64,000 nt of DNA, taken from Gracilariopsis chorda (Eukaryota; Rhodophyta; Florideophyceae; Gracilariales; Gracilariaceae). The stretch spans positions 204,975-268,974 of the forward strand of contig NBIV01000080.1 in assembly GCA_003194525.1 (NCBI GenBank), given 5' to 3'. Below are positions 29,505 to 64,000 of the stretch, piece after piece; the first letter of the stretch is position 1, and each line of letters begins with the position of its first letter. The position numbers were made by a program, and so were the translations under genes. The notes beneath the pieces are model-generated. The model had not been told where the DNA came from. It was given only the letters and a program-made list of their open reading frames with translations, and ran no database searches.

Positions 29505-29525
29505 CAATCCCCGCCCCAAAGGTTG

Positions 29526-35184: not shown

Positions 35185-35189
35185 CAAAC
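35185..35189. repeat. Target-site duplication, right copy (Gypsy-1)
   Basis: CAAAC directly after the right LTR. Confidence 0.85.
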
Positions 35190-35860
35190 CGATATGGAAT
35201 GGAACATTTAACCCCAGCCAGCTTATACTCTATAGGCGGCGGATATCTCCCAAATGCCATTTCATTAGTGAGAGGAGAGGCCTCCAAAACATTGAGGTCG
35301 TTTAAGCTACCGGGCATCCCGAAGAATGCTTGCCATATCCGTAGTTTATTGTCAGCTACTTCTTCCAGTGTTAGACACGGTCCCCCTTCTTTCCCCTGAT
35401 ACTGTCCATTTATTGCGGTAGTGCAGTTTTTCCATACCCATTTACAGCAATCTATGCTGCCGAGAAGTCCAGGAAACCCAGCTTCTTCTGATTTGCTCAG
35501 TATTCTCTTTAGGTCTGAAAATTTGCGGTACCGTAGATATTCCCCAGAGAATCGAGTAACAACTGCACTTGTAAATCGTTTGAGGCACTCATTTGCTGTA
35601 GATTATACCATTCGCAAATACTCATCAACGCTGTCCGCCGCACTCCCATACGCCAGTATGCGAAACGCACATGCTGCCATCTTCAACGCAGTCAATCCCC
35701 ATCTTCCATTAGCATCCTTTCGTTGCACGAAGTAGAAATCTGTTTCGCACACACAAGAGAGTGTAATATCAAAAAGAGCTCGCGTGACATGGAAGCTGCG
35801 CTTGAACTGCTCTTCGCTGTACACAAAATATAATGCAAAGTAATCTTGGTAGAGCCGCAT
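35190..35860 (-). pseudogene. PIF/Harbinger transposase, N-terminal part (upstream of the Gypsy-1 insertion)
   Basis: The minus-strand reading starts near 35860 with MRLYQDYF, then RRSFHVTRALFD-type sequence, DFYFVQRKDANGRWGLTALK and ILAYGSAADSVDEYLRM, all motifs of the Plant_tran family (FVQRRDACGRLGLSxLQK, LAYGxAADxxDEYLR). Next to the insertion comes GMPGSLNDLNVLEASPL, the second catalytic-Asp motif (GMPGSNNDINVLDRSPLF). Frames shift between about 35600 and 35320. The rest of the protein lies left of Gypsy-1. Confidence 0.8.
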
Positions 35861-41081: not shown

Positions 41082-41634
41082 TGTAGTACAGTGGCTCCTA
41101 AGGAAATATGGTGGTGTGGTTTTATGGCGTGATATTCCTAAGGAGGGCTCGTATTTAATTAACTGAGCAGCGTGGTGCATAATTCGGCCCGCGTGCGCTA
41201 CAGTATCCTTAAGGGACGGTAGAATTTATGTTTATTTTATTTAATTTGTGCGGGTAATTACTACAGTAGTGAGATTTGGTGAGGCAGGGTCCCGGCTTGA
41301 TACTTAATCTGCCGGTCGAGCTCCACCTCTGGAGAAGTAAACCATGCACCTTTGAGTCTTCATCTACTTTTCCGGTTGGAGACTCTCGTCGATCATCCCA
41401 AGGTTTCTAAGCCGCCGATCCCCAGGTCTCCTCATAGCATCGCCTGTAGGAGCATTGTCCGCCCAGTGAACCTCCCCCTCCGCTTGGTGTTTGCGGATCC
41501 CCTTTAAGAATTCCCCCGGCTCACGACAGCAAATACTGGAGACCACTTTTAGGAACTCGCACCTTTGGAGTCAACAAAAACTCCTAACGGACATTGTGCC
41601 CTACTACCTCGAAAGGAGAACTGACAGTACCACA
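41082..41634 (+). repeat. Gypsy-2 5' LTR
   Basis: Starts TGTAGTACAGTGG and ends GTACCACA. 553 bp, nearly identical to the right copy. TGG starts 2 nt after its end and could open a primer-binding site, though I cannot name the tRNA. Confidence 0.93.
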
Positions 41635-43996: not shown

Positions 43997-46900
43997 AGGC
44001 TCCGCGTGGCTCCTTACCATCGAGCCTCAGCTCCACGGAGGTCGCCTTTAGGAAAGTGGGAGAAGCCGTCTGCTCCGTCGACGCAGAATCGGCGGGCCTC
44101 CCAATCCCGTTGGACCCATTCGACGCCTTTGAGCAATCTGTTTGCACGCTCCGCCGTGAGAATTACAACGTGTTCGCCTCTATCGAATGTTCCCGGCTCG
44201 CCTCCATCACGGTGCGTGCTATCCTTGACACCGGAGCTGGCCCCAATCTGGTGCACGCCGACGTGCTCCCGCGGTCTGCTCTCCGCTCCTTGAGGACTCG
44301 CTAGCTCCCTACGGTGCGCGATGCGTCGCGTCGAGCATTGAACATCCTCGGTGCAATAGCCCTGTATCTCCGGCTGGGCTCCTTACAGGTGAAGGTGTGG
44401 TTCCTCGTGGCAACCAACATGGCCGCACAATGCATATTGGGCACTTCCTTTGTGGATCGGTATGTACGTGCAATGTACCCACGCTTGCGGAAGGTGACGT
44501 TTCACGACGCCGCCCCTGTAGGTATCGTGTCCGCATCTCCGGGACCGGACGCCAACGCGCGTCACGTGGGTAATCTTCCAAAGGAGACGCAGCCGAATAA
44601 GCTCCGGGTGGTGAAGAGTATCAAAATACCCGCGAGGAGTCAGGCCGAAGTTTGGGTGCAGACCTCTGCATCTGGCCTTTCATTCCTACAGGGGAGTCCA
44701 CACCTGACGACGAAGCAGCACTCCATGATGGCGAATGGTGTTATGGAAATAGTGCCGAACATTCCCTTCAGGGTCATGCTCGCCAACCTGAAGGAGTCGC
44801 CGTTACGGCTCCAGAAAGGAACTGTCGTCGGATTGGCACTACCCGCCCCTGCAGGACTGGCTCATCTTCCTCGTGTGGAAGACCTTGCGGAACGCGATGC
44901 AATCGCCACCATAGAGGCTGAAGCGACATCAACGGCTCCAGAGGAAGGGAACCCTGCCACCTGGCAGGAGAAGCTCCAAATTGGTGAAGATTTCGAAGAG
45001 TATCGCCATAGGATAGTGGAAATGCTATCCGCCTTTGAGGGCATGCGGTCTGGTCGCCTGGGTCAGGTTAGCCTGGCCAAGCACCGGATCCAGCTCACAC
45101 ATAATGCGAAACCGGTACACCAACTCCCGAGGAGGGCCGGACCCCATGCGCGCGATTTCGAACGTGATGAGGTCCACCGGATGTTGGACAAGGGCGTTAT
45201 CGAGCCCTCCAATTCTGAATGGGCCTCCCCGCTGGTGTTTTTGATGAAGAAGAATGGCTCCTTGAGGTTCTGTATTGACTATAGACGCCTCAACGAGGTG
45301 ACGGTACGCGATTCGTACCCGATACCCCGTATGGATGAATGTATCGACTCCTTAGGTGATGCGTCCGTTTTCTCCACGCTGGATGCCAACAGCGGCTACT
45401 GGCAAATTGAGATGGATGACTTCGATAAGGATAAGACAACGTTCAACTCGCACTGTGGAATTTTCAGATTCCTAAGGATGCCATTTGGATTGAAGAATGC
45501 ACCCGCTACGTTCCAAAGAGCGGTGGACATAATCCTGTCGAAGGTGAAGTGGCAGTACGCCTAGGTGTATATTGATGATGTCATCATATACTCCCGCAGC
45601 GTGGAGGAGCACTTCATGCATGTGAAGCAAGTGCTCCCAGTCCTGAAGGATGCTGGACTCAACTTGAAGCTGGAGAAATGTTTCTTTTTCAAGTCCTCGG
45701 TGGATTACCTGGGGCACGTTGTGCTCCCGGGCCGCCTACAGGTTTCCACAAAAACTCAGGACGCCATCAAGGAAGCTCACCCTCCCACAAACCAGACGGA
45801 GCTCCGCTCCTTCCTGGGGTTGTGTAATGTCTTCTGGAGGTTTGTCCTGAACTTCTCCCGTATCGCAGTGCCGTTAAATCGCCTCTTGGAGAAGGAAAAG
45901 CCGACGCAATTGGCTATCTTGACGGAAGAAGAGTTTGAAGCCTTTAACACCCTGAAGAGGAGACTGATAGAGCCACCGATCTTGGTACTTCCGAAGCGGC
46001 ACGGCCGAATGGTGCTGGACACTGACGCCTGTAAATACCAGGTCGGATGTGCCCTCCTACAGGAACAACCTGAAGGTGGACTTCAATCTATCGGATACTG
46101 GAGTCGCAGCCTCACACCTACGGAACGGAATTACTCCACCTCGGAGCGCGAATGTCTCGCCATCGTCTGAGCGGTGTTGCTTTTACGCCCATACCTGGAA
46201 GGCGCGCGTACACCTTGAGGACGGACCACGCACCATTGAAGTGGATACTGTCTTTGACGGATGCTTCCGGTCGCTTGGAAAGGTGGAGGCTACGCCTCCT
46301 GGAGTTCGAGTTTGACATCGTTCACCGTCTTGGCATAAAACATCAGGCAGCGGACGCGCTCTCGCGAATCTCCACCGAGGGGGAAGACAAAACACCTTTG
46401 GAGGACACCATCCCGTGTCTGGTCATCCAGGACGCCGACGGGAAAGAAGGATCCGATGGAGAATGCTTGGAATGGTGTGAACCTGGAGGGAAGTACAGTG
46501 GGCTCCCTGAGGTGATGGACCTTGTTGAGGAGGAGAAAGAAGTTTTCCCCATCACCACAGCGGAGTTCTTGAAGGAGCAGAGTACGGATGCGTACTGCAA
46601 GGAGTGCCTCGCCACTGTGGTGAGTCTAACATCGTCATTCGATGTCGACCGGGACGGCGTACTTGTACGTCGCGCTCCTCTGGATGGAGCTCTCCAAAAG
46701 GTGGTCTCCACAAGACTACGGGCGAGGGTGCTGTATCTCTCGCACTATCCTCGCCTCGCCGGGCACCCCGGTGGATCGCGTATGTATTTCGCCATGTGGA
46801 GGGAGTTCTATTGGCCGAACATGGCTAATGACGCCTTCCAAATGGTGGCGGATTGCTATTCCTGCGCCGCCGCTAGGGGGAATATACGTAAACACCGGAC

Positions 46901-48134
46901 GCCGCTCACTCTGTTCCCGCCTTCAGGACCTTTGGAGTTCGTGGCCATGGACATTTTCGGGCCTCTCCCCAAGACGGAGCGAGGGTACCGATTTATTCTC
47001 GTGATCACTGATCGTTTCTCGAAGATCACGCGCGCCATTCCCCTCCGGAGCACCACTGCAGCAGTAATTGCCGACGCCTTTCTGGAGCATTGGGTTTACC
47101 CATATGGGATACCGTTGTAACTCCTCACGGACAATGGCCCCCAGTTCGTGGCGAAGCTCTTGAGCGCCATCTCCGGAATGCTGGGGATGAAACAGTTGTT
47201 TACAACTGCCTATCAGCCCCAGGCCAACGGACAAGCGGAGAGTTTCAACAAGACGATCGCCTCGAGGCTGAAGCACTACGTCGCGGACCACTAGAAGGAT
47301 TGGGACGCATATTTGGGCCCGCTCACGTATGCATACAAACTGCAGGTGCACCGCTCTACAGGGACCGCTCCTTTCAATCTGGTGCTCTCGCGCATTCCGC
47401 CTAGTGCCGTCATTGCGGCACGCGCCACGGCGCACCCGGCGGATGGGCCACAGGTACCAACAGCGGCACAAGCAAAACGCTCCATCCTAAGGCGGTATGA
47501 GGATGCACTCTCCCTCGCAAAGGAGAGACTCAACGCCTCGCAGAGGAAATATAAACAGGACTTCGACCGGAAGGTGAAGGAAGACCCTCACCTGAAGGAA
47601 GGTGACGAGGTTTTCCTCGACAAACCTGGGGAGACATCTGACGAACCACCGGACGTCACGCGCAAGTTAGCGCCGAACACCTCAGGGCCTTACAGAGTCC
47701 TGGACACCTATAGAGACACTGTCGCCATTGAGGTAAACGGGCTCCAAGACGTCGTCTCCAGTGATAGGGTGACGAAAGTCCCGACGCCCAGCCCTTCAGG
47801 AATGCCCGCCACCATACCTCAGGGACCACGCGCGGAACTTCCTCATCCGACCACCTAAGGAGTGACGACACCGTTGGATACTGGAAACCTCATCACCCCT
47901 CTCTTTGAACCATTGCTGGAGGCTCCAGACGCCATCCTGACCCCTGAAGGTGATATCCTCTATGCGGTGGACCATATCGTCTCCCACCGACAAACCTTTG
48001 CAGGAATACTGTACCGCGTCCGCTGGTACGGGTACACCTCAAAGGACGACACGGAAGGACCTCCGGAACACATCCCGGAGAACTTCATTAGAAGGTACCA
48101 CGCCAATCTGGTGCGGAAACGCCTCTCCACATAG
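43980..48134 (+). pseudogene. pol: Gypsy-2 pol with C-terminal chromodomain
   Basis: Reads in a different frame from gag. Protease: AILDTGAGPNLVHADVLP near 44220. Reverse transcriptase: SEWASPLVFLMKKNGSLRFC, FSTLDANSGYWQIEM, MPFGLKNAPATFQ and VYIDDVIIYS near 45570. RNase H: LDTDACKYQVGCALL and RTDHAPLKWIL. Integrase: HYPRLAGHPGG with CYSCAAAR, MDIFGPLPKTERGYRF and TDNGPQF. The C-terminal chromodomain (about 47965-48110) has AVDHIVSHR and YRVRWYGYTSKDDTEGP, which in other chromoviruses steers insertion to particular chromatin. Stops interrupt at about 44302, 45562, 46168, 47118, 47292 and 47856, and there is one 1-nt shift near 46170-46210; otherwise the frame is whole. Confidence 0.92.
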
Positions 48135-48515
48135 GCGCTTCCGTTTAGGAAAGGGGGAGGGGGCCCCCAACCGGAGTTTTTTTTTCGTCTCCGCTGTCTA
48201 TCCCCCACCTGGAGTTCTCTTTTTCGCCTCCAGGACGCCGTTGCCCGCTTTACGCACGCTGCCACGGCGGCACTTCGTGTCGTTGAGCGCGCGGGCACGG
48301 CCCATTCGTATTGCAACTACCGTTCATGGAGCTTCTGCTCCAACTTAAGGATCTTTTATTTCGCAGCTAGCGGGAACTAACTCCCATCGCCAGGGATCTT
48401 TCACCTACAGGTCACCGAATCGCGTCGTATACTCCGCTTCGAGGCGAGCTTTTGCCGTGAGCGCTTGGCTCTCGAAGAACTCCAACAGGCTTTCCTTGAT
48501 GGCCGCCATCGAGGC
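48135..48515. other. Short convergent spacer in Gypsy-2
   Basis: Between the stop of the chromodomain (+) and the stop of the antisense gene (-). Holds purine- and pyrimidine-rich runs (a G-rich tract near 48150-48165 and a T run near 48177-48186) that could end both transcripts. Confidence 0.4.
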
Positions 48516-50421
48516 TCAGTCCGTCCGGGCCTTGTGGAGTTCTAAGACCCAGGCACGCGCCTCGCGCAGCCCCTCTACAGGAGAAGCCGGAGCAGGACGG
48601 CCCGTCACCAGGCACGCCTGCACCAACTCCTGGAAGGCAGCACCCAGAGCCCCAGAGGATAACCCACCCGATGGTGCACCCGAAGCGGCCGCCCCCGTTG
48701 ACGGAGCAACAACCGCCACGGACGGAGCCGCGGACGGCGGACCAGCTGGGACAGGGGCTTCCCGAAGGGAATCTGCAGGCACCGCCGCGGGGGTCGGCAG
48801 AGCCAAGGACGGAGTCGGCGACACCGGAGGTGACGGCAGTACAGGAACTGGAACGCTCCGCAGGCGAGGCTGAGGAACAGGCGCAGGGACGCTCCGCAGT
48901 CTGGGTTGCACCACCGGGGCCGAAGCCACCGGGACACGAGTAATCTCGTCCTCTTCCATAGGAGACACGGCGGCCACCACTGCGGGAGGATCCGGCATTG
49001 CGGCGGGATGCGGCGTTATAACCTCAGGAGGCGCACACATATCCTGGGACGGAGCCGGTAACGGACAGGGCAGACTAGTCGCCAGGCTCTCCATCAAGGG
49101 GTCATAGTCGGGGACTCGGAGCCGTGGCACCTGAAGAACCCGAGAAGGCGCAAGACGGGGAAAGGTTGGGTAGGCTCGCCCGTCATCGTCTCGATTGGGA
49201 CTCCTCAAGATGGGGTGGAACTTATCTTCGCCATAGTTATACCAAAAAAAGCCCGGCGTATCGTTCCACGCCACCTGCAGGTTGTAGTCCGGCAGCGTCT
49301 CCGCCACGGACTCGCTCCACGCGGTGCCCTTCATCAGGTTCTGAATGCCGAAGGAGCGCAGGACCCGGATGATCGACGCCGACAAGGGGAGCAGACATCC
49401 GGCGGTCGGCTGATACGAAGAATCCCAGTAGATGCGTCCGTCGCGGCACCGAGTATAGGAAGTGACGCCTTCGTCCGCTGCTTAGAGATACGCCTTCAAG
49501 GTGCCGACCGCGAGCTCCGTCGAAGCGATCAACATGACGAAACGCCCTAAGAAGTCATGGGGATCTAAAACCTCCGAGGTGTGGTACGCAAAGGTAATGG
49601 GTGTCGCCACGCAGAGGTGCGGGGATACCCAGTGGTCCCTCCAAGAGTCGTTCACCTTGAGGTAGTACTTCGGACGTTGCCCGGAAGGCATGTCGTGGAA
49701 TTCCGTGCTATGCCAACCATAGAAGTACCCAAAGGCGGTACGTACTCGGGTCTCATCCGCAAGGTGCGTCCCCCAACGATTTCGGTTGAGCCAGTAGAGG
49801 CCATCGTATGGGGGATCGAAGGGCAACACCGCCAGGGCCGAGCGTCCATCGGTGATGCTTCCGGGCCGCCCCGCTCGCTGATGCGAGCTCTCCTTGTGAA
49901 GGAGTACCTGGAGTGGCGCCTGGACCTCCCGCTCTTCGGGGCACCTGAGGAAAGGAGTATCGCAGTGTCCCACCGTGGTTGGAGCGTTGTCACCGTGCAC
50001 CGGTGTGTGGAGCCCGTGAGCGCGATAGGCGTCCACCCGGTTCCGCTTCTGGTCGTTCCAAGCAACCTCCGGTACGGCGCTGAATCGCATCGCCTGGAGG
50101 TACGGTCCGAAATGGTGGATGTAGTCCTCCACGGGGCACGGGAGACTGACGCGCCTGTCGTGGAACGGAACGGATACCCGCGTGGCACGATGGTCGAAGT
50201 GCTCCCCTGGGTGGAATGGTGCACCAGTAGAGGTGTGATACACCTCAGGATTGGATGGACACGTAGGCGCTGGGGTTGGAGAAGTCATGCCGAAGGTGTA
50301 TGTAGCTGGATGAATGGCGACCGAACGTGTCGTAGCACCTGAGGAGAGTGATTTGACGCCACTTGGGGAGCGGCCCGCGGTTATACGCCCGACTGGGGAG
50401 GGAGCCGCGTCGAGGCGCCAT
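48516..50421 (-). pseudogene. Conserved antisense gene of Gypsy-2, unknown family
   Basis: Minus strand, about 620 codons from ATG 50421, with one frame change near 50250 and one in-frame TAA at 49482-49484, otherwise open. Core segments are FGYFYGWHSTEFHDMP, RDHWVSPHLC, PITFAYHTSEVLDPHDFLGR, STELAVGTLKAYL and PGFFWYNYGED. The last third is a Pro/Ala/Val/Ser-rich tail with repeats (QPRLRSVPAPVPQPRLRSVP). The same order of motifs occurs in the plus-strand gene at 60330-62146 of Gypsy-3. It lies opposite to gag-pol, between pol and the 3' LTR, where some plant Gypsy elements have antisense ORFs of unclear role. No domain recognised: no zinc finger, no envelope-like membrane segment, no nuclease motif. 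Confidence 0.7.
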
Positions 50422-51009
50422 CGTGGAATTCGCGGAGAGGACTGACGACCGGAGGCAGGCGAGGTATGGAGCACCATGGCTGGGAGCAAGTTCATATCCA
50501 GTGGAGGCCGACGGAGGCGCAGATGAGAAGATTATGAGATGATGCACCTTCACGGAGACGGAACGCGCGGACGCGATGAACTGGGTGTTCTCCAAAATGG
50601 TATCCTCGAAGAAATCGGAGCGTCGAGTGCCTTGAGGGAGTCCGCGAACAGTGCAGACTGACCCACGCTCCGGCCGCGGAGGTCGAACGCCTGCGCCGCA
50701 CACGAGACACTCGAGTTGTGCGGAATCTCACGCCGCCGACTGGAGCGGCAGCACCGAGGGGTTACGCCAAGAAGGAGAAGACGAGGCCGGGTCAAGGAGG
50801 GCCAGGGCCCGAAAACACCGCAAGGGATAAAACACGAGCCTGCGGTGGTACGCGGCGCAGGAGTATGGAAGTATGAAGGAACGCCTGAAGGAGAGGATGT
50901 GTCACATCGCCGGAGGCCACGCTGGCATCAACACCAATAGGATCCACCCAGGGATCGAGCTATTGGAATATGCACCTCGAGGACGTGGTGCAATTTAGGA
51001 AAGGGGGTA

Positions 51010-51562
51010 TGTAGTACAGTGGCTCCTAAGGAAATATGGTGGTGTGGCTTTATGGCTTGATATTCCTAAGGAGGGCTCATATTTCATTAACTGAGCCACG
51101 TGGTGCATAATTCGGCCCGCTTGCTCTACAGTATCCTTAAGGGACGGTAGAATTTATATTTATTTTATTTAATTTGTGGGGGTAATTACTACAGTAGTGA
51201 GACCTGGTGAGGCGGGCTCCCGGCTTGATACTTAATCTGCCGGTCGAGCTCCACCTCTGGGGAAGTAAACCAAGCACCCTTGAGTCTTCATCTACTTTTC
51301 CGGTTGGAGACTCTCGTCGATCATCCTAAGGTTTCTAAGCCGCCGATACCCAGGTCGCCTCATAGCAGCGCCTGTAGGAGCATTGTCTGCCCAGTGAACC
51401 TCCCCCTCCGCTTGATGTTTGCGGATCCCCTTTAAGAATTCCCCCGGCTCGCGACAGCGAAAACCGGAGACCACCTTTAGGAACTCGGACCTTTTGAGTC
51501 AACAAAAACTCCTAACGGACGTTGTGCCCTACCACCTCGAAAGGAGAACTGACAGTACCACA
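51010..51562 (+). repeat. Gypsy-2 3' LTR
   Basis: 553 bp, TGTAGTACAG...GTACCACA, preceded by the purine tract GGAAAGGGGGTA. Confidence 0.93.
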
Positions 51563-53693
51563 GTTAGTGACGGCAGTAAAAGATGATATCAACCTAAATA
51601 CAGAGGCAGTCGGCGGATCGACGGCAATGAGCTTCAAAACTTTATTTATTCCTCCGATTTGATCCCTATTCATAATCGATAAGGCTTCTCGATTGCGCTT
51701 CGTCTACGAGAGAGGTCTGTTCTCTAGGGATAACAAGTTTTTAGAGTTCACTTGCAAGTGTTGCACAAACAGGTTTGTAAAGTTGGGTGATGCAACTTTC
51801 AGGGGCCACCTGTATCGTCCCTACCCATCTCACAACGTCGCAGCAGTATTCTTGCAAACCTTTTTCAGGATTAAGCATTGGTGGATCCGTTGGTGCCAAG
51901 GGTTTGACCTTCGTCGGAGCTGGGCCATTACCTTGAGCGATAGTGGATATGCCAATTTTCTGGTGAAAGCGAGGCGAGAGGGGAGTGAAAGAGGACGTCA
52001 CTCTTAGCTCTGTTGCCTTGTCCTTTTCCCCGGGCCGGCTGTGGTCCCGCCGGCCCTCTATACTATGGATTGGTCGTGGCTCATTTCGTTCCCCCGTTGG
52101 AGGAAGGTGGGAGGGAGAGCCGCAAGCAACGCAAGCATCTGGAAATTGTTTGAACGTGGAGGCTGGTGGTTCTGGCAGCCACTCAAACATGACCACAAGA
52201 ATCTCAGAAAAGATTTCAGAGGCATCAACGTTGCAAGTACTATGACGATAGATAAATCCATCCGGGAATTGAATGTCATCAGGCAGAAAACTATTGTGAG
52301 AGGTAAAATTAGAGAGAGTTGCATTGCAATTCCCCCAATCACAATGCAACTCCGAATTGAGATTGCATTTTGTACTCTCCTTCAATTAGACTTACATATA
52401 ATTAGAAGATAGAGTGTATGAAGAGGCGGCTGTCGGGGCAGTCTGTGATTTCTGGCGGCCACACACTTCGTCTCATGGTCGCATCGCTCAACCATCCCTC
52501 GAACGCAACCCCGAACCCTATCCCTGCCTCGATCCCCCCCCCCCCCTTCACAAGCCGTCCGACAACCACTCCGAAACTTTCCCTCCTGACATCAACCACG
52601 TACTCCTCTCCTCATCATAACTCCCCAACGCACCCCTCATATACCACAGCATTCCCGGGGACCGCCGAAACAATTCTTGGAACCCAAGTCTACAGTGTAT
52701 ACTTGGCGTTATTACACCTCTAGAAGACCAGCAGCGTTCATTCTCTTTCTCTGTTCTTGAGAACAACCCATGTGCCGTTGTTGACACTGTCCGTCATTCC
52801 ATGCAAGCAACTTATTGTCAGCTGTTTCTTTTCATTGACAACCGAAACGTCATAAACCGACATTGGAATCCCACACTGCTCCACGGCAACGGAAGATAGG
52901 GTGACGAGTCAACCACTACTCAGCTTTTGCATCCTACGTCAAGGAAGTTTATGTTTTTCGAAGGCTCTTGTGTCTGCAACCCCCACCATTACAACCAAAC
53001 GTACCTTAAACGTTAAACTTCTCTCTTCGTTATATCAACCTAAGGCTAAACAGCTCGCAAGCCGAGTACCGGTATGGTAATCGATTGGGCACTTGAAGTA
53101 ATCCTCATGATTTGATATCACACCAGATAACCTTCTCAGCTGGGGTGGGCTCTGTCTGCCTTTGGTAACACGGTGTGTGGTCGTTTGGCCCAAGCTTTTC
53201 AATAACGCTCTTCTTTAGTGACCAACAAAGCCGTGCTCGAGTCTTGCAAGGAACTAGAAGGGGTCAAGTGGTGAAAACTTATCTTCAGTTAGTAACCTCC
53301 GTTGGACGTCCTGTAGAGACTAAACGCACCTCGCTCTTGTTCGCGAAGAGCTTGGCAGGCTGCAGGAAGTTGTGAATCACCGGGAGAGAGTAAGCCCTTC
53401 CCAGAGGTAAAACCAGATCCATATGACTGACTGTGTGGCATCGATTTGGTCCAGTTCTTTTCTGTGGGTTGATGTCCATTTATCTTCGTCGGGGTACAGT
53501 CTTGCTGTTTTATGCAAGCTGGGGGGTAGAGTAGTGGAGTTGATTGTAGTTGATATGGGGTGTGGTCGTGCGGGGGTCTTAGGCCCTCTCTTCACTAGGA
53601 CATTTCACGCTGCATTCTGTATAGGGTACCCAGATATCGAGGGATTTCCCATTTTCTATGACACTTTCAGAATTGTCCAAAATACCTTTTATT
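51563..53693. other. Stretch without a recognised gene
   Basis: About 2.1 kb. A minus-strand frame at 51741-52385 (about 210 codons, containing VACGSPSHLPPTGERNEP) is open but begins only at TTG and matches nothing I know; it may be a relic of another element. A run of 13 C lies at 52534-52546. The plus-strand frame at 53423-53755 leads into the Harbinger relic but does not look coding before ATG 53756. Confidence 0.35.
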
Positions 53694-53719
53694 TTGGGGT
53701 CGCTTCAGAGCGACCCCAA
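53694..53719. repeat. Perfect 11-bp inverted repeat (hairpin), 4-nt loop
   Basis: TTGGGGTCGCT, loop TCAG, then AGCGACCCCAA. It lies 37 bp before the first codon of the Harbinger transposase relic. It may be a subterminal or regulatory repeat of that element; not a transcription terminator in a eukaryote. Confidence 0.6.
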
Positions 53720-53755
53720 CTACTGACCAACGCTCGACCCACATCATCCTCCCAC

Positions 53756-54965
53756 ATGGATAGTCAAACGCGCCGAGGTCTGGCAATCGCCATCGCCAAT
53801 GTCCTAGCTGAAAACGACGACTGCATGGAGCATTTTGTTACTGACCTACTATCCTCAACACAATCACTCTCTACAGTAGACTTGACTACGAAACCCAACC
53901 ATGGCGATGCAAAGGCCGTTTGTGGGAGCGTCGACGAAATTCGTCGAAATGGTTCTTTGACCGCGCCGTAAGCAGAGACTTCCTTGGAAGCTCTTCTTGG
54001 CGCAGTAACTTCAGGATTCCACAAAATCTTTTCAATGAAACTGCAAGCACACTACCTCTCCCTGTCAAGAAATGTAGCACGAGTTTTTGTCATACACTTC
54101 GAGCAGAAATCAAGATAGCTGCCTTTTGCCTCTATTGCGGTGGTGAAACCAGCGATTAAGCAGCATCCCAGCTTGGAGTTGGTCCTAGCACAGTTTCATT
54201 GGCTGTTAGCTCTGTTTCAGAGGCGATTGTTACGCAATACGGAAACAAAACTGCGTTTCCAACCACATAAGTGGACATTGCCGCAACAATGAAAGGTTTT
54301 CAAGAGCTCTCTGGTCTTCAATACTGTGTCAACGCTATACACGTGACGCACATTAAATGGCCAGTCTGCCCTCAAGGGCAATATCATGAATACCGATGCT
54401 ACAAAGGCGTTCCTAGTATTGTGCTTTTTGCAGTTGTGAGGTCTGACAGGAAGCTAATATACGCAGATATTGGCAAACCTGGGGTGCTAGGAGACTTCAC
54501 AATATATGAGCGCTGAAATGTCAAGAGGAAAATAAGCGAAGGCGCTTGGACCGGCTATACCATAATTGGTAATTGCTAACGTTCCAGTTCGCCTCTATCT
54601 CATTGGAGATTGCACGTTTCAGCTAAGTTAAAATATGATGAAGAGTTGCACGGAGGCAGAGAAGAACACAAACCCTGTGTTGCAGACTTAGGATATAATC
54701 GCATTCAAAACACTAAAGCCAGTCGAATGCGCATTTGGCATGCTTAAGCATCGGTTTTGCTGTACTGAAGGATGGAGTTAAACTAAATCATGAAACCGAA
54801 ATGGTTGTGCTGGCAATGGCCTGTGTCCTCTTGCACAATATGTGCATAGAAAACGGCGACTACGAAGAGGAGCTTCTGCCCCCGGATGAAACAGAACACC
54901 AGTACGCTGTTGTCACTGCAGAAAACCGAGCGGGCAAAAGGCAAAGAGACGCTTTACTCTTTTAA
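53756..54965 (+). pseudogene. Harbinger (HARBI1/DDE_Tnp_4) transposase, frameshifted
   Basis: ATG at 53756 (MDSQTRRGLAIAIANVLAEN). Several frame changes follow, then the catalytic core: LSGLQYCVNAIHVTHIKWPV (first Asp position of the G(x)IDGTHI motif replaced), YHEYRCYKGVPSIVLFAVV, GKPGVLGDF (second Asp motif), then PVECAFGMLKHRF with the Glu and ACVLLHNMCIENGDYEE near the C-terminus. This block order defines the PIF/Harbinger DDE_4 family. The usual Asp of IDGTH reads Asn/His here (AIHVTH), one more sign of decay. It is followed 35 bp downstream by an opposing Myb-like relic. Confidence 0.78.
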
Positions 54966-54999
54966 ATTACGAATGATTTCAATACTGAGTAGATATTGT

Positions 55000-55330
55000 T
55001 TAGAACTTTTCCACCAGTTTCTTGAGAACAGACCGCGTTTTCTGACTTTCATCATTGCAAAGCTTCAGTTCAGTTATGAGAGAGGGGTTGTTTTCTTCTT
55101 GCTGCTTCATATATTCTGCAAGAACACTGTCTCCGGAGAGCTTAGTCCTCTATTGCGTACTAAATTCTGGGAGATCTATCCACGTGCTTCCATCGTCTGT
55201 TGAGTAGTGTGCTGGAGGATCATAGTGAGCGTTTCCATGTTCCAGATCGTGCATATCTGCAAATAACTATGGCCTGTTGTACAAATCATCATCGTCACTA
55301 TCAGTTCTAGAAGCTCTGAGTTTTGTGACA
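55000..55330 (-). pseudogene. Myb-like accessory protein of the Harbinger relic, C-terminal part
   Basis: The minus-strand frame ends at TAA 55000-55002 and has two in-frame TAG codons but no frameshift across about 110 codons. It reads DMHDLEHGNAHYDPPAHYST, then LAEYMKQQEENNPSLITELK and TRSVLKKLVEKF. That has the acidic linker and C-terminal coiled coil typical of the second gene of Harbinger elements. Assigned by position (tail to tail with the transposase) and composition; the DNA-binding N-terminus is not visible. Confidence 0.5.
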
Positions 55331-55349
55331 AAGACAGAACACTTTATGT

Positions 55350-57670
55350 TAATTCTCGTGAACTTCTTCTCCTCGCCCACCCGAATAGTAGAGAAGGTTT
55401 GGGTGGGGATGAGTGGGAATCTGATGAGGGATTCGTTGACGTCGTGGAGGTAACGTTCGAGGTGGGCCTTGCAAGTCAGCTTCTTTTTCGGTTTGAGGGT
55501 GGGGATGGTGATGTGGGCTATTTGTACGAATGAAAAGAGTTGTTGCAGTTCGGGTGCTCTGTGGAAACAGGCTGTGAAAGAGATTTGGTTGATATCTTTG
55601 TGCAGTGTAAGGTTGTACTTGAATATCTCATCATTGATGGCGTCTTCCTAGTAGGTGTTGGTGAGTTTGGCATCTTCGACTGCTCCCCGCGTGGTGGTCA
55701 GGAGGGAGAGTTGAGTCTTCCCCCAGAGACGTCATTTCTGGGCTGTATGGTAGAGTGGGAATAACTGTTATGCCGTGTTGGTTGTAGAAGCCTTTCATAT
55801 AGTTAGATAGGAGTTATTTTGCGTTGTGGCAGCGAAAGAATTTGGAGTATTGGTTTTGCTACGTCCGGGCGAGGTTCATATGGTGTTTGAAGAATTAGGC
55901 TACTGCGGTGCGTGTGACAGTGCAGTTCAGGAAGCCAAATCGGGAGCAGGCATCTCGAAACGTGATAAATTGGTTGTTTCCATGATAGGATGTGGTGGGT
56001 AGCGGGCCACAAACGTCGCTGCTCATGGATTGTCCGAATCTGTCGTCATGGTGCGTTGGACGGTGTGGTGCCGGTACTGCTCTGCCGTATCGGCACGAGG
56101 CGAAAGTAATTGTGTGCAGTTTGCGGAGTAGTGTGGGTGGCATACCGGGGAGGAGTTGTTAGAGTGCACAGGTCGATTTGGTTGAACTCGAGGTGCCATG
56201 CATAGTAGGTTTTTCGGAGAGTAGTAAGGTTTTCGTTAGATTTGAGGAGGGGCGCGGCTTTCGGGGATAAAGTGGCTAGTGCTGTGGAGGGGATGTTTAT
56301 TGTGTGGGGCATGGCTGGGTTGGCGGTGCTGTTGGGATTGCGGACTTTGGGTTTGTGGTGTGTGGGTGGTGTTGGCGGGTGCGCGCGTGCACCGTAGGTG
56401 TTTGGGGTCGTTCGTTGTGTGCTTCATAGAATGAGGTGCCGTTAGAGTCTTTTTATGTGTGGGGCTGTTGCTATAACTGACAAGAGGTGCCTGAGTTTCT
56501 TTTTGATAATAATGGCGCGCGCAGGGTAGAAGTGCACTGCGCTGAAGTATTTTGCTATTTCGAGGCTAGGTTTGGTTCGATTTTGGTGTTGACGACTGCT
56601 GGAATCGTGAATGTGATGCCATTAATTAAGCGGAGGTTGGTCCGTTCTGTGTGCTGGATAGGGAACGATTGGTTGGTGACGTTGCGTGAAAGGTTGTGTG
56701 CCGGGCGCATTGGTTGGGTGGTCTTTGCGATTTGGGAGGGGTTTGCTGCACTTTCGAGGACAAAAGTATCGTTGTCGTTGTTATCATCGATATGGGCTTC
56801 AAATTCTGAGTTCTGTGGATAGTCAGAGAGCGGGAGCAGTTGATCGTGGGTGCGGGGAGCAAACGCTTCTTTAGCCTGGGGTTGTGGTGGTTTTTGATGT
56901 CGTTGTTCTCTCACACGTTGTTGGGTCATGCACTGGCGTCGTTGTGGGGGGGCACTTGGTGGTAGGTGCACAAAAGGGGGGTGCAGGGGTTCTAGACTCG
57001 CCGGTGGGAGCACTTACGAGTGTAGAGGTGGTGTCTGTAACTGACTGTGCGGTGGCTTTGCAGTATAGAGGTAGTGGATGGTATGAAGGGAGATCAGGGG
57101 AGGTCCTGTCGGAAGAGCTCGGTTTGATTGATCTGGGTGGCAAAATCTCGTATGGTGGGCGAGGGGTTTAGAGACATTGCTTCCTCAGTGGTATGGTATT
57201 GTGGGTTAGCACGGAGACCTTGGATGAGGTAGAATACTGTGATGGCGCGGAATTTGGCGTTGACCATGCATGTTCACAGGTTTTGGTGCTTATTTATGTA
57301 GTCGTTGATTGTGATGTCAGGGGTGATTTGTATAGTGCGAGCTTCGGCTTCGAGGATTCGGTGGGTTGTCTCGGTGTTTGAGGCTATGTGACATTTGATG
57401 GTTTGGAGTATGTTGTGTGGCGTGTCGTCATAACTGTCTGGGATGAAGAGGGAGGATATGGTATCGAATATGGTGGTGAAGATGAATGATTGGAGGATGG
57501 CTTGATGTGTTGCATATTGTTCAGCTGCTGAGAGGTCTGTAGGAGTGACTGGATATCTTACAAGGTATTCTGTTGTGTCGGGGATAATCTTATGTTGGGT
57601 AAGGTTGGCTTCGCCCACTGTGATATGTGTGAGTGTGATATTGCACGATTTCACGACGCCGGACGACAAC
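55350..57670 (-). mobile_element. Truncated Ty1/Copia retrotransposon, minus strand
   Basis: The gag start (57669-57274) has VRYPVTPTDLSAAEQYATHQ and DTPHNILQTIKCHIASNTET, the UBN2-type Copia capsid pattern. Further down are a low-complexity Pro/Thr region, a GAG-pre-integrase segment (YYAWHLEFNQIDL near 56190) and an integrase segment with CRYGRAVPAP and SSDVCGPLPTTSYHGNNQF near 56040-55960 (the DVxGP motif). Reverse transcriptase and RNase H are missing: the sequence ends near 55350 against the Myb-like relic. Frames are broken many times. Confidence 0.75.
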
Positions 57671-58437
57671 AGCCTTTTTTGTAATTTTCTTTACTGTCGA
57701 GTAGCTTGAAAATATGTTAGTAGCTCAAGAGTACCATCGCTGGCGTGCAATGCCAATAGATAGTAAACCGAAAAGGGTTCATAGAAACGTGAGTACTGCC
57801 GCGGCAGGCACAAGACGTGCACCGTCTCGACTAATGCAAGGCGGAAATAGATGATGATAAAAGATTACACAGGACAACAGCCCTCTAGTAGCAGTGGAGA
57901 AGAACGGTGGTGATAACAGATGCACGACCAAACCCTTAGGTCTAGTGCAATAGAGATATAAATGTTTTTACTGAACAGGCACGACCAAAACCTTAGGTCT
58001 AGTCCGTGGCTTGGAGCAAACTGGTACGCCGGTTGATCTCGTAACAGACCGAGGCAGCCCAGTCACTCACGGTGTGCAGGAGACTGAGCTGCACGGTTAT
58101 ATGGGGAAAGTGTGGTAGAGTAGTGTTGGAGGCAAGGAGGAGCAGACAGCTCTAAGAGAAGGTGGGGGTCGCCAAAAGAAGGAGAAGTAGCCTGGCCCGA
58201 GTTGGCTTAGGGGCCACCGACCTCGGGCTTTAATAGACAATTAGGCTAGGTGCATAATCTCTAGTTATGCATACTAGGTCTAAGCAACAACTCATAATAA
58301 CCTGTCATGGGCCACATCCTTCCCATGACGGGCCGACTTGGCAATAGTTATTATACCTCTTAGGGTATTATTTTGTCGATATAATATCTGGTGAGGGCCT
58401 CGAACAATTCCAGCAATATTCTTCCAGCCACCTCACC
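57671..58437. other. Non-coding stretch upstream of the Copia relic, possibly LTR or leader
   Basis: On the 5' side of the minus-strand Copia gag, so the expected place for its 5' LTR and leader, but no LTR partner is present to prove it. Contains the direct repeat at 57922-58003. Confidence 0.4.
57922..58003. repeat. Direct repeat, two 25-bp copies
   Basis: GCACGACCAAACCCTTAGGT(+5) at 57922-57946 and again at 57979-58003 with one difference, 57 bp apart. Confidence 0.8.
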
Positions 58438-58860
58438 ATGTCCAGCCCAGACGTAACCTCCATCATTCGAGGGCTCTCAGACGATTCCAGCTTGTCGGGA
58501 CATTCGTTTCAGTATTGTGATTTAGTAGAGATGGAAGCAGAAAAAGAAGATGCGCCGTCGCTGTCATCCCGGTGGAACACACAACTAGCAACGGAAACAG
58601 TCCCGAATAGTTTTGAGGGCTTTGGATTCTCTTCGTAGTTACTGCTCGAAGTACAGGATATTTTACGCCGTGTTGCAGAATGTTTGTTGAAGGTGGAAGA
58701 CGTCGTTGCAATCCGGAATGATCTCATATACCAAGCGCCAAACTTGTATGTGCGTGGGCTGATGCACGGGGCAGTTTTTGCTTCAAACTGCCATTTTCTT
58801 CAAAAACTCACTCCCATCCATTCTCTTCTTCCTATTATAGACCAAAGTCTTCATAAGTAA
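58438..58860 (+). pseudogene. Unrecognised short ORF with one internal TAG
   Basis: ATG 58438 to TAA 58860 in one frame, 140 codons, interrupted only by TAG at 58636-58638. Reads MSSPDVTSIIRGLSDDSSLS, an acidic stretch, then EVQDILRRVAECLLKVEDVV and QAPNLYVRGLMHGAVFASN. Coding-like composition. It may be a small gene relic or an N-terminal fragment captured between elements. No family recognised. Confidence 0.35.
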
Positions 58861-59390
58861 AAAATTCTGTAAGCTTCCTTTACCTTTGCTTCTTTGCGGC
58901 ATGCGCGGTAGCTGAAGCGCGTGTGGTATGCTGATCCGTGGTAGTAGCGCCCTCCACTGCGTGATTACCTGGGGCGGCGATGATAGTGGAGTCATGCGGA
59001 CATAAGGTATGGGTACGGTGCAGCATAGCATATGATATGAGCTCCGGTGTAGGTGCCAACGCATGAAAGAAGCCAGTGCAGGAGCAGCTGCCTGAGGTAG
59101 CGGCATCTAGAAGTAGGGGGGGCGAACATGATAGACATGGGGCTTGATGGCGGCACGGGCAGCGCTGATTTGCGAGCTATGGCGCGTTAGGAACAGGAGA
59201 GACGGCGAATACTGGCAATATGTTCTGCATATCGCAAGGAAAAGATTTGGATCAGTTTTTCCACGCTTATAGAGATACGAAGGATGTTATCGTGACTGAG
59301 TATGACAGACGGTACGGGAATCAGATGCAGTATGAACTCGTTGCAAACATGCAGTGTGAAGACGCAACGAAAGCTGCAGTGGCACGAAGT
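58861..59390. other. Spacer, no gene recognised
   Basis: Short frames only. Its right part (59220-59390) is open on the plus strand and runs into the presumed LTR of Gypsy-3. Confidence 0.35.
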
Positions 59391-60081
59391 TGTAGTGCAA
59401 TACCCGCAAGCGGGACAACCCACGAAGACGTTCGGAATCTTCCCCTCTGGAGGGTAACACAGCGAACGGAGCCTCTCCGGATGAGCACGACGAAGTCGGG
59501 TTGTAAAGCCGAGACTCACCCTCACACCAAGCGGGGAGAGTTGAAACGGTAGGATTAGGATCACCACGAATGGGAAAACAGCCCTTCCAAGGAGTACGAG
59601 TCCACGTAAGTGGGAGAAGACGTCACGGGATACCGGCACGAGAGACACGCGTCAGCGGTGACGAGCAACCACACAAAGGGGTAGAAACCACGAGAGTGGG
59701 GTAAGGGAAATACGGGGGATGCCCGATTGGGGGCGACAGGGGTGTAGGCCAACGGGACCACGGAAAAAGGTACAAAGGAACCCTATACAGGGGCGAGAAC
59801 ATGGCGGTGGTGAATTAAGTGACAAGTGCCCAAGGCAGTGATACTCCTAGTGACGCAGGGTGGATAGGTCTACCGTTAGTAACGCGGCTTTACCTCCGAG
59901 GAGTGTAGAACACTCGCGAAAGCGGAAAAGACTTAGAGCCAAGAACCCTGGTTGGGGAAGTTTACTCAGTGTCAGGGCGAGGTCGCCGAGCCACTATATA
60001 GTGTAGTAATCTCCCTACTGTAGCGTAGATAAATAATAAATAATAAACATAAGTTAACTAAATGTCCACACCGTGGTGCCA
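59391..60081 (-). repeat. Presumed 3' LTR of Gypsy-3
   Basis: The right (inner) edge is set by TG...CA form plus an adjacent purine tract (AAGAGGAGGT on the minus strand, 60082-60091). The left edge, TGTAGTGCAATACC at 59391, is a guess. The minus strand has a TATA-like CTATATAG at 59994-60001. No second copy lies in the window to confirm. Confidence 0.4.
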
Positions 60082-60329
60082 ACCTCCTCTTGACTATCCG
60101 TGTCACGCGTGGTCCACTCACACCTTGGGCGGCACACCGCGCATGCACAGGTGTGCACCTGGCGCACAGTGCGGATCCGCTGAGGGCTGAGACACCCGTT
60201 AATAGCGGTAGTAATCATAAACACGCGAAAGCGGCAAAAAAACATCAAGTCCACAGGGCATCGCTGAGTCCTCCTCCTTGAGGATTGCACTTCATATCCC
60301 CCTCCTGAGGTGCGAATACGACATCCACA

Positions 60330-62146
60330 ATGGCGACGGAAGCACCGGGAAAGGTCCTTAAATGTATGTCCGGTTCGCCGGCTCTCGATCCCACTCTGGG
60401 TAGCGAGCACCTAGCTGCGAACAGCGAATCTGCGACCAACTCTTCCGAGGTTCTTCCAACAACACATACGCTTTCGCGGCCTTCTTCTCCGATTACTCGG
60501 CTTCCTTCATCTACGATGAACAACAACAACGGCAACAACAACAGCAACGCCGGCAGCAACACACCGTTACAGTACTTCTCCGGATTTCATTCCGTGCCTC
60601 TACCGCAGAGCGGTATCTCGACTCCGTCGCAACGAACAGGCGCACATGCGAGTGCGGCTCCCACGGGAGGGTATCTAATGGCAGCGTGGCCGTCGTACGA
60701 AATGCTGGTCGGGTTGCAGCCTTCGCAACATGCGATGACTCTCCGGTTGGCGCCATGGTTCCACCCGACTGCGGTGTTCAATGATGCGCTTCTGGCGATG
60801 TATACCGATGGAAACGGAATGCTCCCGGGTGACGTTCCGGCAATCGTGACCACTTCTTGGGATTGGCGCAATCGCGTAGCGATACCCGTGCACACGGTTA
60901 TCCGACGGGGTCGGGAATCAGCAGCTTCCGCGCACGCGGCGTTGGTTTTACTCGCTCATCAACGGCTTCGCCGGGCTCCCTTTAAGTATCCCATCCCCGA
61001 TGGTGTGGGCTCCGACATCGGATTGTATCGCACCCAAGGTGAAATGGGGTACCTCGACCGCCTCGCTGGTTTGGAACCCCTCTTGTGGAGAAGCATTCCC
61101 GCGGCGCGCCAAGACGCGGTGTGCTGGACAAGGCCGATCATTCGGGCTGAATTTTGCTAAATGCGTTGCTTGGTGAGGGCCAAATTCTTGTCGATGATAC
61201 GATTTGAGCGGCGAGCACGGTCCCGATTCGGGTATTTGATTCCGTATCATAACGTAGAAGTCGAACGCATCCGCGTGGTCAACCGACGGGGTCGGTACCT
61301 TCCGATTCCACCGTGGTGGTCGCATCTCGAAGCGTGCCGAGGTTGCTACATCGAGTTGCCTCCCGTGATCACGTATTACGGCTCATACCTCATCGAGGAT
61401 CCTCAGTCCGGGCTCTGGTCCGTGGTGGTCACCGAATGGGCGGTCCGCACAGCGGCTTTCATACTCTGGGAGGTTTATGACCAGTACAGACTGTGGTTCA
61501 TCCCGTTGCGGGTCCGTGCCGCCATCCGAGCGCGGGACTTACGAATCCCACTAGGTGGTGGGGCAAACGCTGACGAAGTAGCGGGGCTCCTCGATTTCAT
61601 CAACCAGATTGACTGGGCTTCAGTTCCTCTAGAGCAGAGTGGGCGTACTGCCGGTAGCCGGATACAGGACCTGTCGCCAGGGCGTCGAACTCCGCTCGCG
61701 GGGACTTCATCTACTTCAACCCTTGGGAGGGGCATGAGATCTCCGCGGAGGAAGCGAACGAGCTCCAGTTTGCACCGAGATATATCCCCGAGGGGCATCC
61801 GACCGGGTTTGTTGACGCCGATGAGTACTACAACGTCTACGACGGTGAGGATCCGATGTTCGACAACGAGCCCGACGAAGGTGCCGGTCACGCCGAGGGG
61901 GAGGGAGAACCATATGGTATGGATGCTCTTGGAGCCGCCCCTGCGAGTCAGCCGTCCAATCCGTCGGTCGCTCTTCCCACTGGTGGGTCCTCTACGCCAG
62001 GTGAGGCGAACGTGTCCCCTGCGGGTCAGGCTGCCGTGATCTCTCAGTTCCTCCGCCAAGTGGGGCTGGGAGGTAACGAGGCCAGTGGCGATGTCACCGC
62101 GATGCAGGATGCTCTGATAGCCCGACTCCAGGGAAATAACCACTAA
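60330..62146 (+). pseudogene. Conserved antisense gene of Gypsy-3, homologous to that of Gypsy-2
   Basis: ATG at 60330; about 605 codons with one in-frame TAA (61158-61160) and one frame change near 61640-61690, otherwise open. The order parallels the Gypsy-2 gene: SYEMLVGLQPSQHAMTLRLA, then DVPAIVTTSWDWRNRV, FGYLIPYHNVEVERIRVV, YYGSYLIEDPQSGLWSVVVT, EWAVRTAAF and GDFIYFNPWEGHE. It ends in an acidic then Ala/Gly/Ser/Pro-rich tail and a final short helix. An Asn-rich run lies near residue 65. Plus strand, opposite to Gypsy-3 pol, and convergent with it (215 bp between stops). No known domain recognised. Confidence 0.7.
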
Positions 62147-62360: not shown

Positions 62361-64000
62361 TTATCCCACTTGGGCGTGTATCACCGATGCCGGGATCCCT
62401 GTTCGCGTTCTGCGATGATATGAAACCACTTTCGAACGTGGGAGGTGCTCTATTGGCTCATCCGAATCATATTCAGGCCCGAAACCGTACCAGCGTACGC
62501 GGTACTGGATATAACCATCTGGATGGTAAGAATGTTCTACAATGTGGTGAACGACAAACTCCTGTTTGTAGACTTCCCGGCCTCGCCGTGTTCGCATTAT
62601 CGCGTCCTGCACGGCAGGCTCTACCACCACTGGTGGGTGTTGGACAGTCTTCCCCGGAAGGGGCATGGCTTGGTACTGCCTGTCCATGCCCTTTGAGGGG
62701 TCATTAACCGGTTTCCGGGTAGGTTCATCCGTTTCGCGGGTCTGGAGGTCCTCGGCACGGCCGGTTGCGTCGACCACTTGATGGTGCGTATCGGGACCCT
62801 TGCTGTGGGTTAAAGTATCCCGCTTCGCCGTTTCTTCACTCCTTGAGTGGGCTTCTATTGACGATACCCTTTGAGGGGCTTCTAACGCATCTGAAAGATG
62901 AGCATCTGGGTCGCGAACCACAAGTTTGTGTGTAGATATCCGTCTTGACGGGGGTGCTTCAGACGACGAAGTCGGTTGTACCACGGTGCGTCGTACAGTA
63001 CGCGTTGACTCGCCTCGGGCGGTAATTGGTGCCTTTGCCGTCCGTACGGTGTCAGGGTCACGTGCCGTTTGCAACGGATGGTCGAGGGTTGTCCGCGCCG
63101 TCTTGCGCTCCGCCTCCTCACATGAGGGCGGTTGCAACGGTGCTGCCGGTGTGTTCTGCCGTGCAGTAGGAGTTACCACGTCCGATGTAGTCGGCTCAGA
63201 GGATCCCGCGAGGGCCTGCTCTGCATTATCCAGCGTAGCTGTTGTTGACGAACCGTGACCCACGGAATGCGGGTCAACGCTCGACGGCACAGCCGGTTCA
63301 GTATCGCGAACGCGAATAGTTTCCTCAACGATTTCACTTTGGCGAGAGACGTCCCACTGCGTGGTGCATTTTGACGACTAGAATCCCGGTGGGGAGTGCG
63401 ATCTGGCGCAGATGCGGTAGAACTTCCTCGAGAGAGTTCAGCGGTAGCTGTAGCACGCAAATGCGAAGATGGCACGTCAGTAGACGGAACACTCGGTCCA
63501 CTATTATCCTTTTCGATGTGTCCGGAGGTCCGTGCACCACGGTTGTCATGACGCGACGAAGCGGTTTCATTCTCTCGACGAGAGTTAGGGTTCTCCTCCC
63601 CCTCCTTGGATGGAGCGGCATGGGGAGTGGTAGAAGCGCCCAAACTGCGGGGATAGACGCTGCGCAGTGGCGTTAGAGAAGAAAGGCCATTCGGGCCTGC
63701 GTCCGATAAGGACGGTATATCTGAGAGTCCCCTTGAAGGGTGTGGCAACACAGAAGGCCTGTTAACCACAGATGTGGGTTGTTCCACTGGGGTGTGTTGG
63801 TTCTCATCTTGGTAAGAAACCTCTACGGAAGGTGGCGGTGCGATAACAACGCGATCGCGAGAAATCCACTCGTGAGCGTCGTTCATTTCCACCACTAAGG
63901 TGTCTTTATCCACTGATATGACCTTGTTAGGACCGTTCGCGACGGGTGAGAGCTTATGCCGTTTCTCCTTATCAGGGTTCCAGTGCTCCTTACGGACGAA
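62361..64000 (-). pseudogene. pol: Gypsy-3 pol, C-terminal part (integrase tail and chromodomain)
   Basis: From the right edge: HKLSPVANGPNKVISVDKDT (GPY/F-like integrase tail), a long Ser/Thr/Pro/Arg-rich linker, and a chromodomain near 62600-62440 with FVVHHIVEHSYHPDGYIQYR and RWYGFGPEYDSDEPIEHLP, ending at 62361. A 1-nt shift lies near 63300-63340. The linker between integrase and chromodomain is much longer than in Gypsy-2. Confidence 0.82.

Follow-up and report, generated by a model that had tools for sequence, protein, structure and literature searches.

What are the long reading frames that run opposite to gag-pol in two Gypsy-type retroelements of the red alga Gracilariopsis chorda, and do they serve the elements that carry them? 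The question is raised by a 64,000-nucleotide stretch of contig NBIV01000080.1 (hereafter the window), in which the elements Gypsy-2 and Gypsy-3 each hold such a frame between pol and the 3′ long terminal repeat (LTR). A preliminary description, made from the letters alone, had taken the two frames for a single antisense gene of no recognizable family. Here, we show that the Gypsy-2 and Gypsy-3 antisense proteins are homologous, and that the protein has been under purifying selection between subfamilies. As to what it does, we put at roughly 40% the reading that it is a trans-acting, probably regulatory accessory protein of red-algal chromovirus-like elements, encoded antisense between pol and the 3′ LTR.

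Homology and selection on the antisense protein

Both window copies are decayed. The Gypsy-2 gene (48408..50495, minus strand) lies in a frame that runs from 50531 to 49485 (349 codons), meets a TAA at 49484-49482, and continues in the same frame from 49481 to 48519 (321 codons), where a second in-frame stop follows (48516-48518). A stop-free genomic relative of 708 codons, L002, is 90% identical to it across residues 2-708 and aligns in a single frame to about 48408; the end of the gene had previously been placed at 48516, which is thus the second stop of a decayed copy. The Gypsy-3 gene (60330..62143, plus strand) lies in a frame that runs from 60309 to 61157, is broken by a TAA at 61158-61160, resumes at 61161 and switches near 61700 to the frame of 61658-62143. 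The protein of the L031 copy matches it piecewise in two different frames, with residues 1-467 at 93.8% and residues 467-614 at 91.9%. Therefore, the frame of about 600 codons ascribed to both elements holds for the family, many genomic copies of which are open across about 600-850 codons, but not for the window copies, each of which is broken by stops and, in Gypsy-3, also by a frame change.

Compared directly by BLASTP, the two window frames give E = 2e-4 over 98 columns at 27% identity, and one pair of pieces scores 28.5 bits, where 200 shuffles reach at most 23.9. When relatives are pooled, a profile of the Gypsy-2 side (group A, 9 sequences) against one of the Gypsy-3 side (group B, 7 sequences) gives E = 2.1e-14, with a probability of 98.3 over 200 columns. 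The relationship had been proposed by eye with profile significance named as its test, and the profile similarity is significant; when 19 relatives are aligned, the places of the four motif pairs on which it was first noticed all coincide. A set of 13 diverse long members has 13 invariant columns and a further 11 that are kept in 12 of the 13. The divergence is deep, with the group B proteins sharing 18-20% identity with the protein P0001.

Between subfamilies, the ratio of nonsynonymous to synonymous divergence (dN/dS, by Nei-Gojobori) is low, lying at 0.17-0.28 in 12 of the 13 pairs with finite dS above 0.2 and at 0.53 in the remaining pair. The N-terminal half of the window Gypsy-2 frame gives 0.18 against L003 (dS 0.41) and 0.17 against L004 (dS 0.67), with 0.74 against L002 (dS 0.06); L002-L004 give 0.18-0.22 among themselves; a 738-codon family gives 0.18 and 0.19 between subfamilies and 0.51 in a near pair; and the group B families give 0.19-0.28 in five pairs and 0.53 in L032-L058 (dS 0.23), with four of their ten pairs saturated. 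Changes at the first, second and third codon positions number 29/28/81 (against L003) and 42/39/113 (against L004) in the first half of window Gypsy-2, and 35/26/58 and 51/34/93, respectively, beyond its stop. In the spacer beside the LTR the corresponding counts are 26/31/41 and 43/46/49, a third-position excess that is weak or absent. Within the N-terminal half, 0-2 codon pairs contain a stop in the real frame, against 6-18 in each of the five others. The dN/dS of the other frames is 1.3-1.7, save for frame −2 (0.23-0.28). In that frame the third position is the mirror of the real frame's, and a stop occurs in 17 codon pairs.

Low dN/dS, the third-position excess and the greater number of stops in all other frames bear out the suggestion that selection has acted on a protein product. 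A chance frame is rejected in view of this codon-level selection together with the size of the family. The same data bear on the possibility that it is the antisense transcript that matters, through double-stranded RNA or interference with sense transcription, and that the frame is a by-product. Antisense RNAs may indeed regulate retroelements, as stated in the available part of PMC7264820; however, the dN/dS of 0.17-0.18, the stop counts of the real frame against the others, and the codon-position counts of the spacer all speak against it, and make a transcript-only role very unlikely.

Copies, position and descent

The genome searched was that of the alga itself (91.3 Mb, 1081 contigs); the row lists overlap, and a single copy can be represented by several fragmentary rows. 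There are at least 119 rows for the Gypsy-2 N-terminal half, at least 137 and at least 144 for the Gypsy-3 frame searched as two halves, at least 82 for the protein P0007 and at least 69 for P0009. Among the matches listed for P0007, 59 of the 71 main rows fall, by eye, in a stop-free frame of at least 600 codons, the 11 rows of the list beyond these 71 being second pieces of copies already counted. P0007 is one such antisense gene, deposited as ‘hypothetical protein BWQ96_03215 [Gracilariopsis chorda]’. Its residues 1-491 are 100% identical to C30:292265-293737 (L060), the sole one-piece match there, and the deposited model may have been joined across a frame change.

The position of the gene relative to pol was assessed with 263 antisense-frame rows (112 of the 119 from the Gypsy-2 N-terminal half, where 7 second fragments were dropped, and 115 of the 144 and 36 of the 137 from the Gypsy-3 halves, where the remainder were second fragments or the other half of a copy already listed, or were dropped for brevity) and 188 integrase rows (94 of 134, with 40 small fragments omitted, and 94 of 94). 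An integrase row lies within 8 kb of 103 of the 263, and in 101 of these 103 it is on the opposite strand, on the 3′ side of the frame; at least one copy, on C153, enters this count as two rows. The two exceptions are on C67 (7,994 bp) and C145. Among the matches listed, 160 of the 263 antisense rows have no integrase row within 8 kb, and 88 of the 188 integrase rows have no antisense-frame row. Direct inspection of five further families (C36, C53, C30, C83, C50) found pol opposite in all five. In L031, L032 and L033 both LTRs were mapped, and the antisense open reading frame (ORF) sits between pol and the 3′ LTR; these are complete elements with open frames and LTRs 97.7-99.6% identical, and 5-bp direct repeats were seen by eye at the ends of the L031 copy (CTTTA) and the L033 copy (AGCAG).

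One candidate of the opposite arrangement, the L034 gene on C43 lying in sense to a gag-pol, was rejected, since the gag-pol in question is part of an insertion nested there (133472-142832) that has LTRs of its own; other copies of the L034 family have pol antisense to the gene. The L032 element, for its part, is flanked by an inverted gene start on one side and an inverted LTR on the other (L032 1-633, L036 2432-3262), as if neighbors had inserted head to head.

The gene had been described as shared by two Gypsy families. Both do carry it, but the count was too low, as about ten element lineages do so. This breadth also bears on the idea that the gene was captured from the host in recent times, or is foreign DNA nested in the element, and is unconnected with the biology of the element. 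The protein resembles neither gag nor any library family, as such an origin would allow, but 101 rows share its place and orientation, and the main splits among its ten or so lineages are those of the integrase tree. We regard capture as the most improbable of the readings weighed here.

Integrase identity between the groups is 38-48%. IQ-TREE trees of ten lineages were compared for integrase/pol and for the antisense protein, the label W_G2 standing for the relative L002 in the antisense-protein trees and for the window copy with stops masked in the pol tree. Both trees recover the A/B split (100/100 each) and strongly support L032+P7 and F738+F652; G3+(L032,P7) is moderately supported in both (77.6/75 and 57.8/73). 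F647 is basal within B in the pol tree (100/100) but joins F643 in the antisense-protein tree (53.7/55), and the placement of L033 differs as well. The comparison points to a gene co-inherited with pol, with details that differ between the trees. The gene would have been present before the split of clade A (with Gypsy-2) and clade B (with Gypsy-3), would then have been passed on with pol, and would have been lost in one young relative.

That relative is the nested Gypsy element on C43 (L034/L038), which has 870-bp LTRs 100% identical to each other and long gag and pol frames. No antisense gene was found in it, and its pol frame ends only 423 bp short of the LTR. Its pol groups with that of the gene-bearing F643 (99.4/99), and loss of the gene is the simpler reading, based on one copy. 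That a recent insertion lacks the gene suggests that, at any rate in this element, the gene is dispensable in cis, unless relatives supply it.

Relatives were also found outside the genome. A search space of 5.8 billion proteins yielded P0005 (97% to P0001), P0006, P0010 and P0011, which lie on Logan contigs, together with P0008 and P0009, which lie on ENA contigs 22-23 kb long. Since the matches of P0009 in the G. chorda genome are at most 47%, it derives from another source. P0008 and P0009 pair in the tree with F643 and F647, both of which are G. chorda families (support 1.000 and 0.952), as if these two lineages predated the species, and the presence of relatives in other sequence sources suggests that the gene as such may predate its host species. 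A protein search with a 337-residue piece gave no match, relatives longer than about 590 residues being outside its length range, and scans of viral contigs gave no relative.

Carrier elements, start codons and protein layout

Gypsy-2 is bounded in the window by a 5′ LTR (41082..41634, plus strand; 553 bp, TG start, CA end) and a 3′ LTR (51010..51562, plus strand) of 94.2% identity, and its outer 5-bp flanks do not match each other. By eye, a polypurine-tract (PPT)-like string, AGGAAAGGGGG, stands immediately internal to the 3′ LTR. The carrier domains follow in the order reverse transcriptase, RNase H, integrase zinc finger. The first is in a pol piece at 44305..45561 (plus strand; PF00078 RVT_1, E 1e-15), and RNase H and integrase are in a second piece at 46074..47117 (plus strand; PF17921, E 1.4e-11; PF17917, E 1.2e-5), where PF00665 is weak (E 0.0074) and falls short of the cut-off.

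Gypsy-3 is a minus-strand element at the end of the contig (C80), which is also the end of the window, and its far end is missing. It comprises a 3′ LTR (59391..60294, minus strand; 97.1% identical to the LTR of the L031 copy), the pol end with the chromodomain (62364..63377, minus strand; PF00385 at 25.3 bits, borderline against a cut-off of 25.1), and an open pol piece (63176..64000, minus strand; 87% match to L031 pol residues 1127-1189). About 518 bp on the chromodomain side of its antisense gene (62767-63284) are not in the L031 copy.

A chromodomain above the cut-off was found in five carriers, namely Gypsy-3 (borderline), L033, L032, L062 and L063, and was not found in the other scanned pieces (two Gypsy-2 frames, two L031 pieces, L065 and L061). 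The carriers are Ty3/Gypsy elements of chromovirus-like type, a type recognized by reverse transcriptase, RNase H and integrase in this order and a chromodomain at the integrase end. The gene had been placed between the chromodomain and the 3′ LTR. Its antisense position between pol and the 3′ LTR stands for both elements, but the chromodomain is borderline in Gypsy-3 and missing from the two Gypsy-2 frames scanned.

Elsewhere in the window, two direct repeats of 1073 bp (28438-29510 and 34118-35190; 96.6% identical, starts 5.7 kb apart) are probably the LTRs of a third element, and 56001-58000 has a marked strand bias (GC skew 0.39, AT skew −0.19).

Where the LTR end is mapped, the group B ATG stands close to it, at 35 bp in window Gypsy-3, 35-37 bp in L031 and 56 bp in L032, with the PPT in between; in the two families concerned, the ATG has A at −3 and G at +4. 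In P7 and F643, whose LTRs are unmapped, the distance is about 47 and 50 bp, counted by eye from an LTR-end/PPT string. With the ATG 35-56 bp from the LTR end in four of the six group B families, a normal leader would place the start of an antisense mRNA inside the LTR, and we infer for these four an antisense promoter within the 3′ LTR. The frame starts about 0.7 kb from the LTR edge in L033 and about 0.5 kb from it in Gypsy-2; in group A, the promoter may lie in this spacer of 0.5-0.7 kb.

The protein begins with some 120 poorly conserved residues, followed by a core, roughly 330-380 residues long, in which aromatics and prolines are conserved (residues 121-500 in P0007, where the majority fraction per 20 residues is 0.42-0.78 among eight group B members). 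After the core come a variable Pro/Ala/Ser stretch and a short helix-Gly-helix end piece, the helices of which are taken from weak models and the Gly of which is invariant (13/13 in the alignment). Scans of Pfam (19 family members), NCBIfam and PHROGs gave no match above cut-off; weak matches to DUF6127 (0.071), DUF6220 (0.1), Nup192 (0.29), TIG_plexin (0.066) and ECX1 (0.053) were taken as chance. No solved structure matched in a search of PDB sequences. Two models were made, one of P0005 from 6 rows, with a mean predicted local distance difference test (pLDDT) score of 40.7, and one of P0007 from 10 rows, with a mean of 47.5 and a better stretch at about 330-490. Both are poor; with them, the best Foldseek E was 7.6 (PDB) and 6.7 (viral models), and VIA-align gave no match. 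A comparison with known folds had been proposed at the outset, and it could be carried out, but only with models too weak for use. As far as the libraries go, the description of a new retroelement gene without a recognized domain is upheld, there being no library, PDB-sequence or fold match.

Known parallels and the proposed function

The remark that antisense ORFs in this place are known from plant Gypsy elements is correct. Retand with its TRP28 protein, Grande with gene23, and RIRE2 likewise carry an ORF of antisense orientation in the interval from pol to the 3′ LTR (PMC11963269, PMC7264820, each in its available part). In Retand, 97% of the clusters of such ORFs have PF04195 (PMC11963269); Retand-type ORFs are conserved across recently active copies and a regulatory role has been proposed for them (PMC11963269, PMC7264820), and for Grande, a promoter upstream of gene23 and a nuclear protein are described (PMC7264820). 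The algal protein is not TRP28: that identity was rejected, as PF04195, the TRP28 domain, gives zero matches at E ≤ 10 in the G. chorda genome, and it is unlisted for the 19 members. Retand, moreover, is a non-chromovirus lineage, whereas five red-algal carriers have a chromodomain match. As far as tested, the red-algal protein seems unrelated in sequence to Retand/TRP28. Outside plants, an antisense ORF so placed is named for Boty of Botrytis and Sclerotinia (PMC7264820, available part); the likeness claimed here is one of place.

A second parallel is found in retroviruses. HBZ and APH of the human T-cell leukemia viruses (HTLVs) are likewise encoded by an antisense gene at the 3′ end; HTLV antisense proteins repress sense transcription, and in HTLV-1 the proteins are nuclear and the transcript starts in the 3′ LTR (PMC3185765, available part). 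In the alga, an LTR start is suggested by the ATG distance only. HBZ has a bZIP domain, whereas neither bZIP nor another Pfam domain was found in the 19 algal members, and HTLV is an infectious retrovirus whereas the carrier here is an algal retroelement. In the titles and abstracts of the open-access literature searched, no such gene is described in red algae. The arrangement is known from plants; the protein family and its red-algal chromovirus carrier appear to be new.

Judged from sequence, the antisense protein probably does a job for the element. Its place and strand, the selection on it, the start beside the LTR and the absence from one young element lead us to favor a trans-acting regulator. 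By analogy with HBZ of HTLV-1 and with the roles proposed for the Grande and Retand antisense proteins, the product would influence, in trans, the expression or the chromatin state of the element itself, and would not belong to the replication machinery in cis. Of the functional readings, we favor regulator first, anti-silencing second and a particle role third.

Anti-silencing would make the protein an antagonist of host silencing (DNA methylation, heterochromatin or small RNA), with losers of the gene surviving via relatives in trans. The anatomical evidence serves this reading as it does a regulator, a young gene-less element beside many open relatives fits a diffusible product, and the deep divergence of group B from P0001 fits an arms race. 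On the other hand, no known domain was found in the library scans, dN/dS between subfamilies is low, and these gene-wide averages carry no sign of positive selection. We consider anti-silencing doubtful.

Alternatively, the protein might be a component of particle, assembly or transfer, env- or capsid-like, that happens to be encoded antisense. Its large conserved core with conserved aromatics and prolines, in which no catalytic signature was recognized, would suit such a part, and retroviral env occupies the interval from pol to the 3′ LTR. Plant env-like extra ORFs sit in that interval too (PMC7264820, available part), but on the sense strand, whereas the algal gene is antisense and, by a crude test (19-residue hydropathy, at most 1.85 in 16 proteins), its product shows no strong membrane segment. 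Furthermore, no gag similarity was found (L031 gag, best BLASTP E 0.31), no viral fold matched, though the model is poor, and the gene-less element moved recently. Taken together, these make a particle role unlikely.

Having stated our preference for a trans-acting regulator, we would note the observations that weigh against it. First, recent copies have a dN/dS of 0.42-1.19, as expected from drift after insertion and in itself no evidence of selection. In the 774-codon and 842-codon families the values are 0.42-0.48 and 0.56-0.73; the Gypsy-3 recent copies give 0.66 when 21 pairs are pooled (0.45-1.19 in the 12 pairs printed, 0.45-0.99 in the 15 with dS above 0.02). Selection on the product, first suggested from protein motifs kept in divergent DNA, is thus seen in the 12 more diverged pairs but not among recent copies. 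Second, in F664 and F647 the 90 bp before the first ATG contain no LTR-end/PPT string, and the LTR-promoter argument does not reach these two of the six group B families. Third, basic stretches resembling nuclear localization signals occur in 4 of 16 proteins and are missing from the other 12, some of them fragments; the library scans found no nucleic-acid-binding or regulatory domain; and the fold model (mean pLDDT 47.5) is too poor to suggest a function. Fourth, the pol frame of the nested element on C43 stops within the chromodomain region, with the tail readable beyond, and the existence of this gene-less element would be expected of an unimportant gene no less than of one acting in trans.

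In its widest form, which we put forward as a tentative possibility, the gene would be an old antisense regulator of undescribed family and fold, driven from the 3′ LTR, and the HBZ-type solution would have arisen independently in retroviruses, Retand-type plant elements and red algae. The findings place a second, apparently unrelated protein family at the plant-type position, with dozens of open and young copies in many subfamilies. The young gene-less relative offers a natural with/without comparison for the function of 3′ antisense genes, and the annotation of algal genomes gains a large unnamed gene family, of which BWQ96_03215 is a member.

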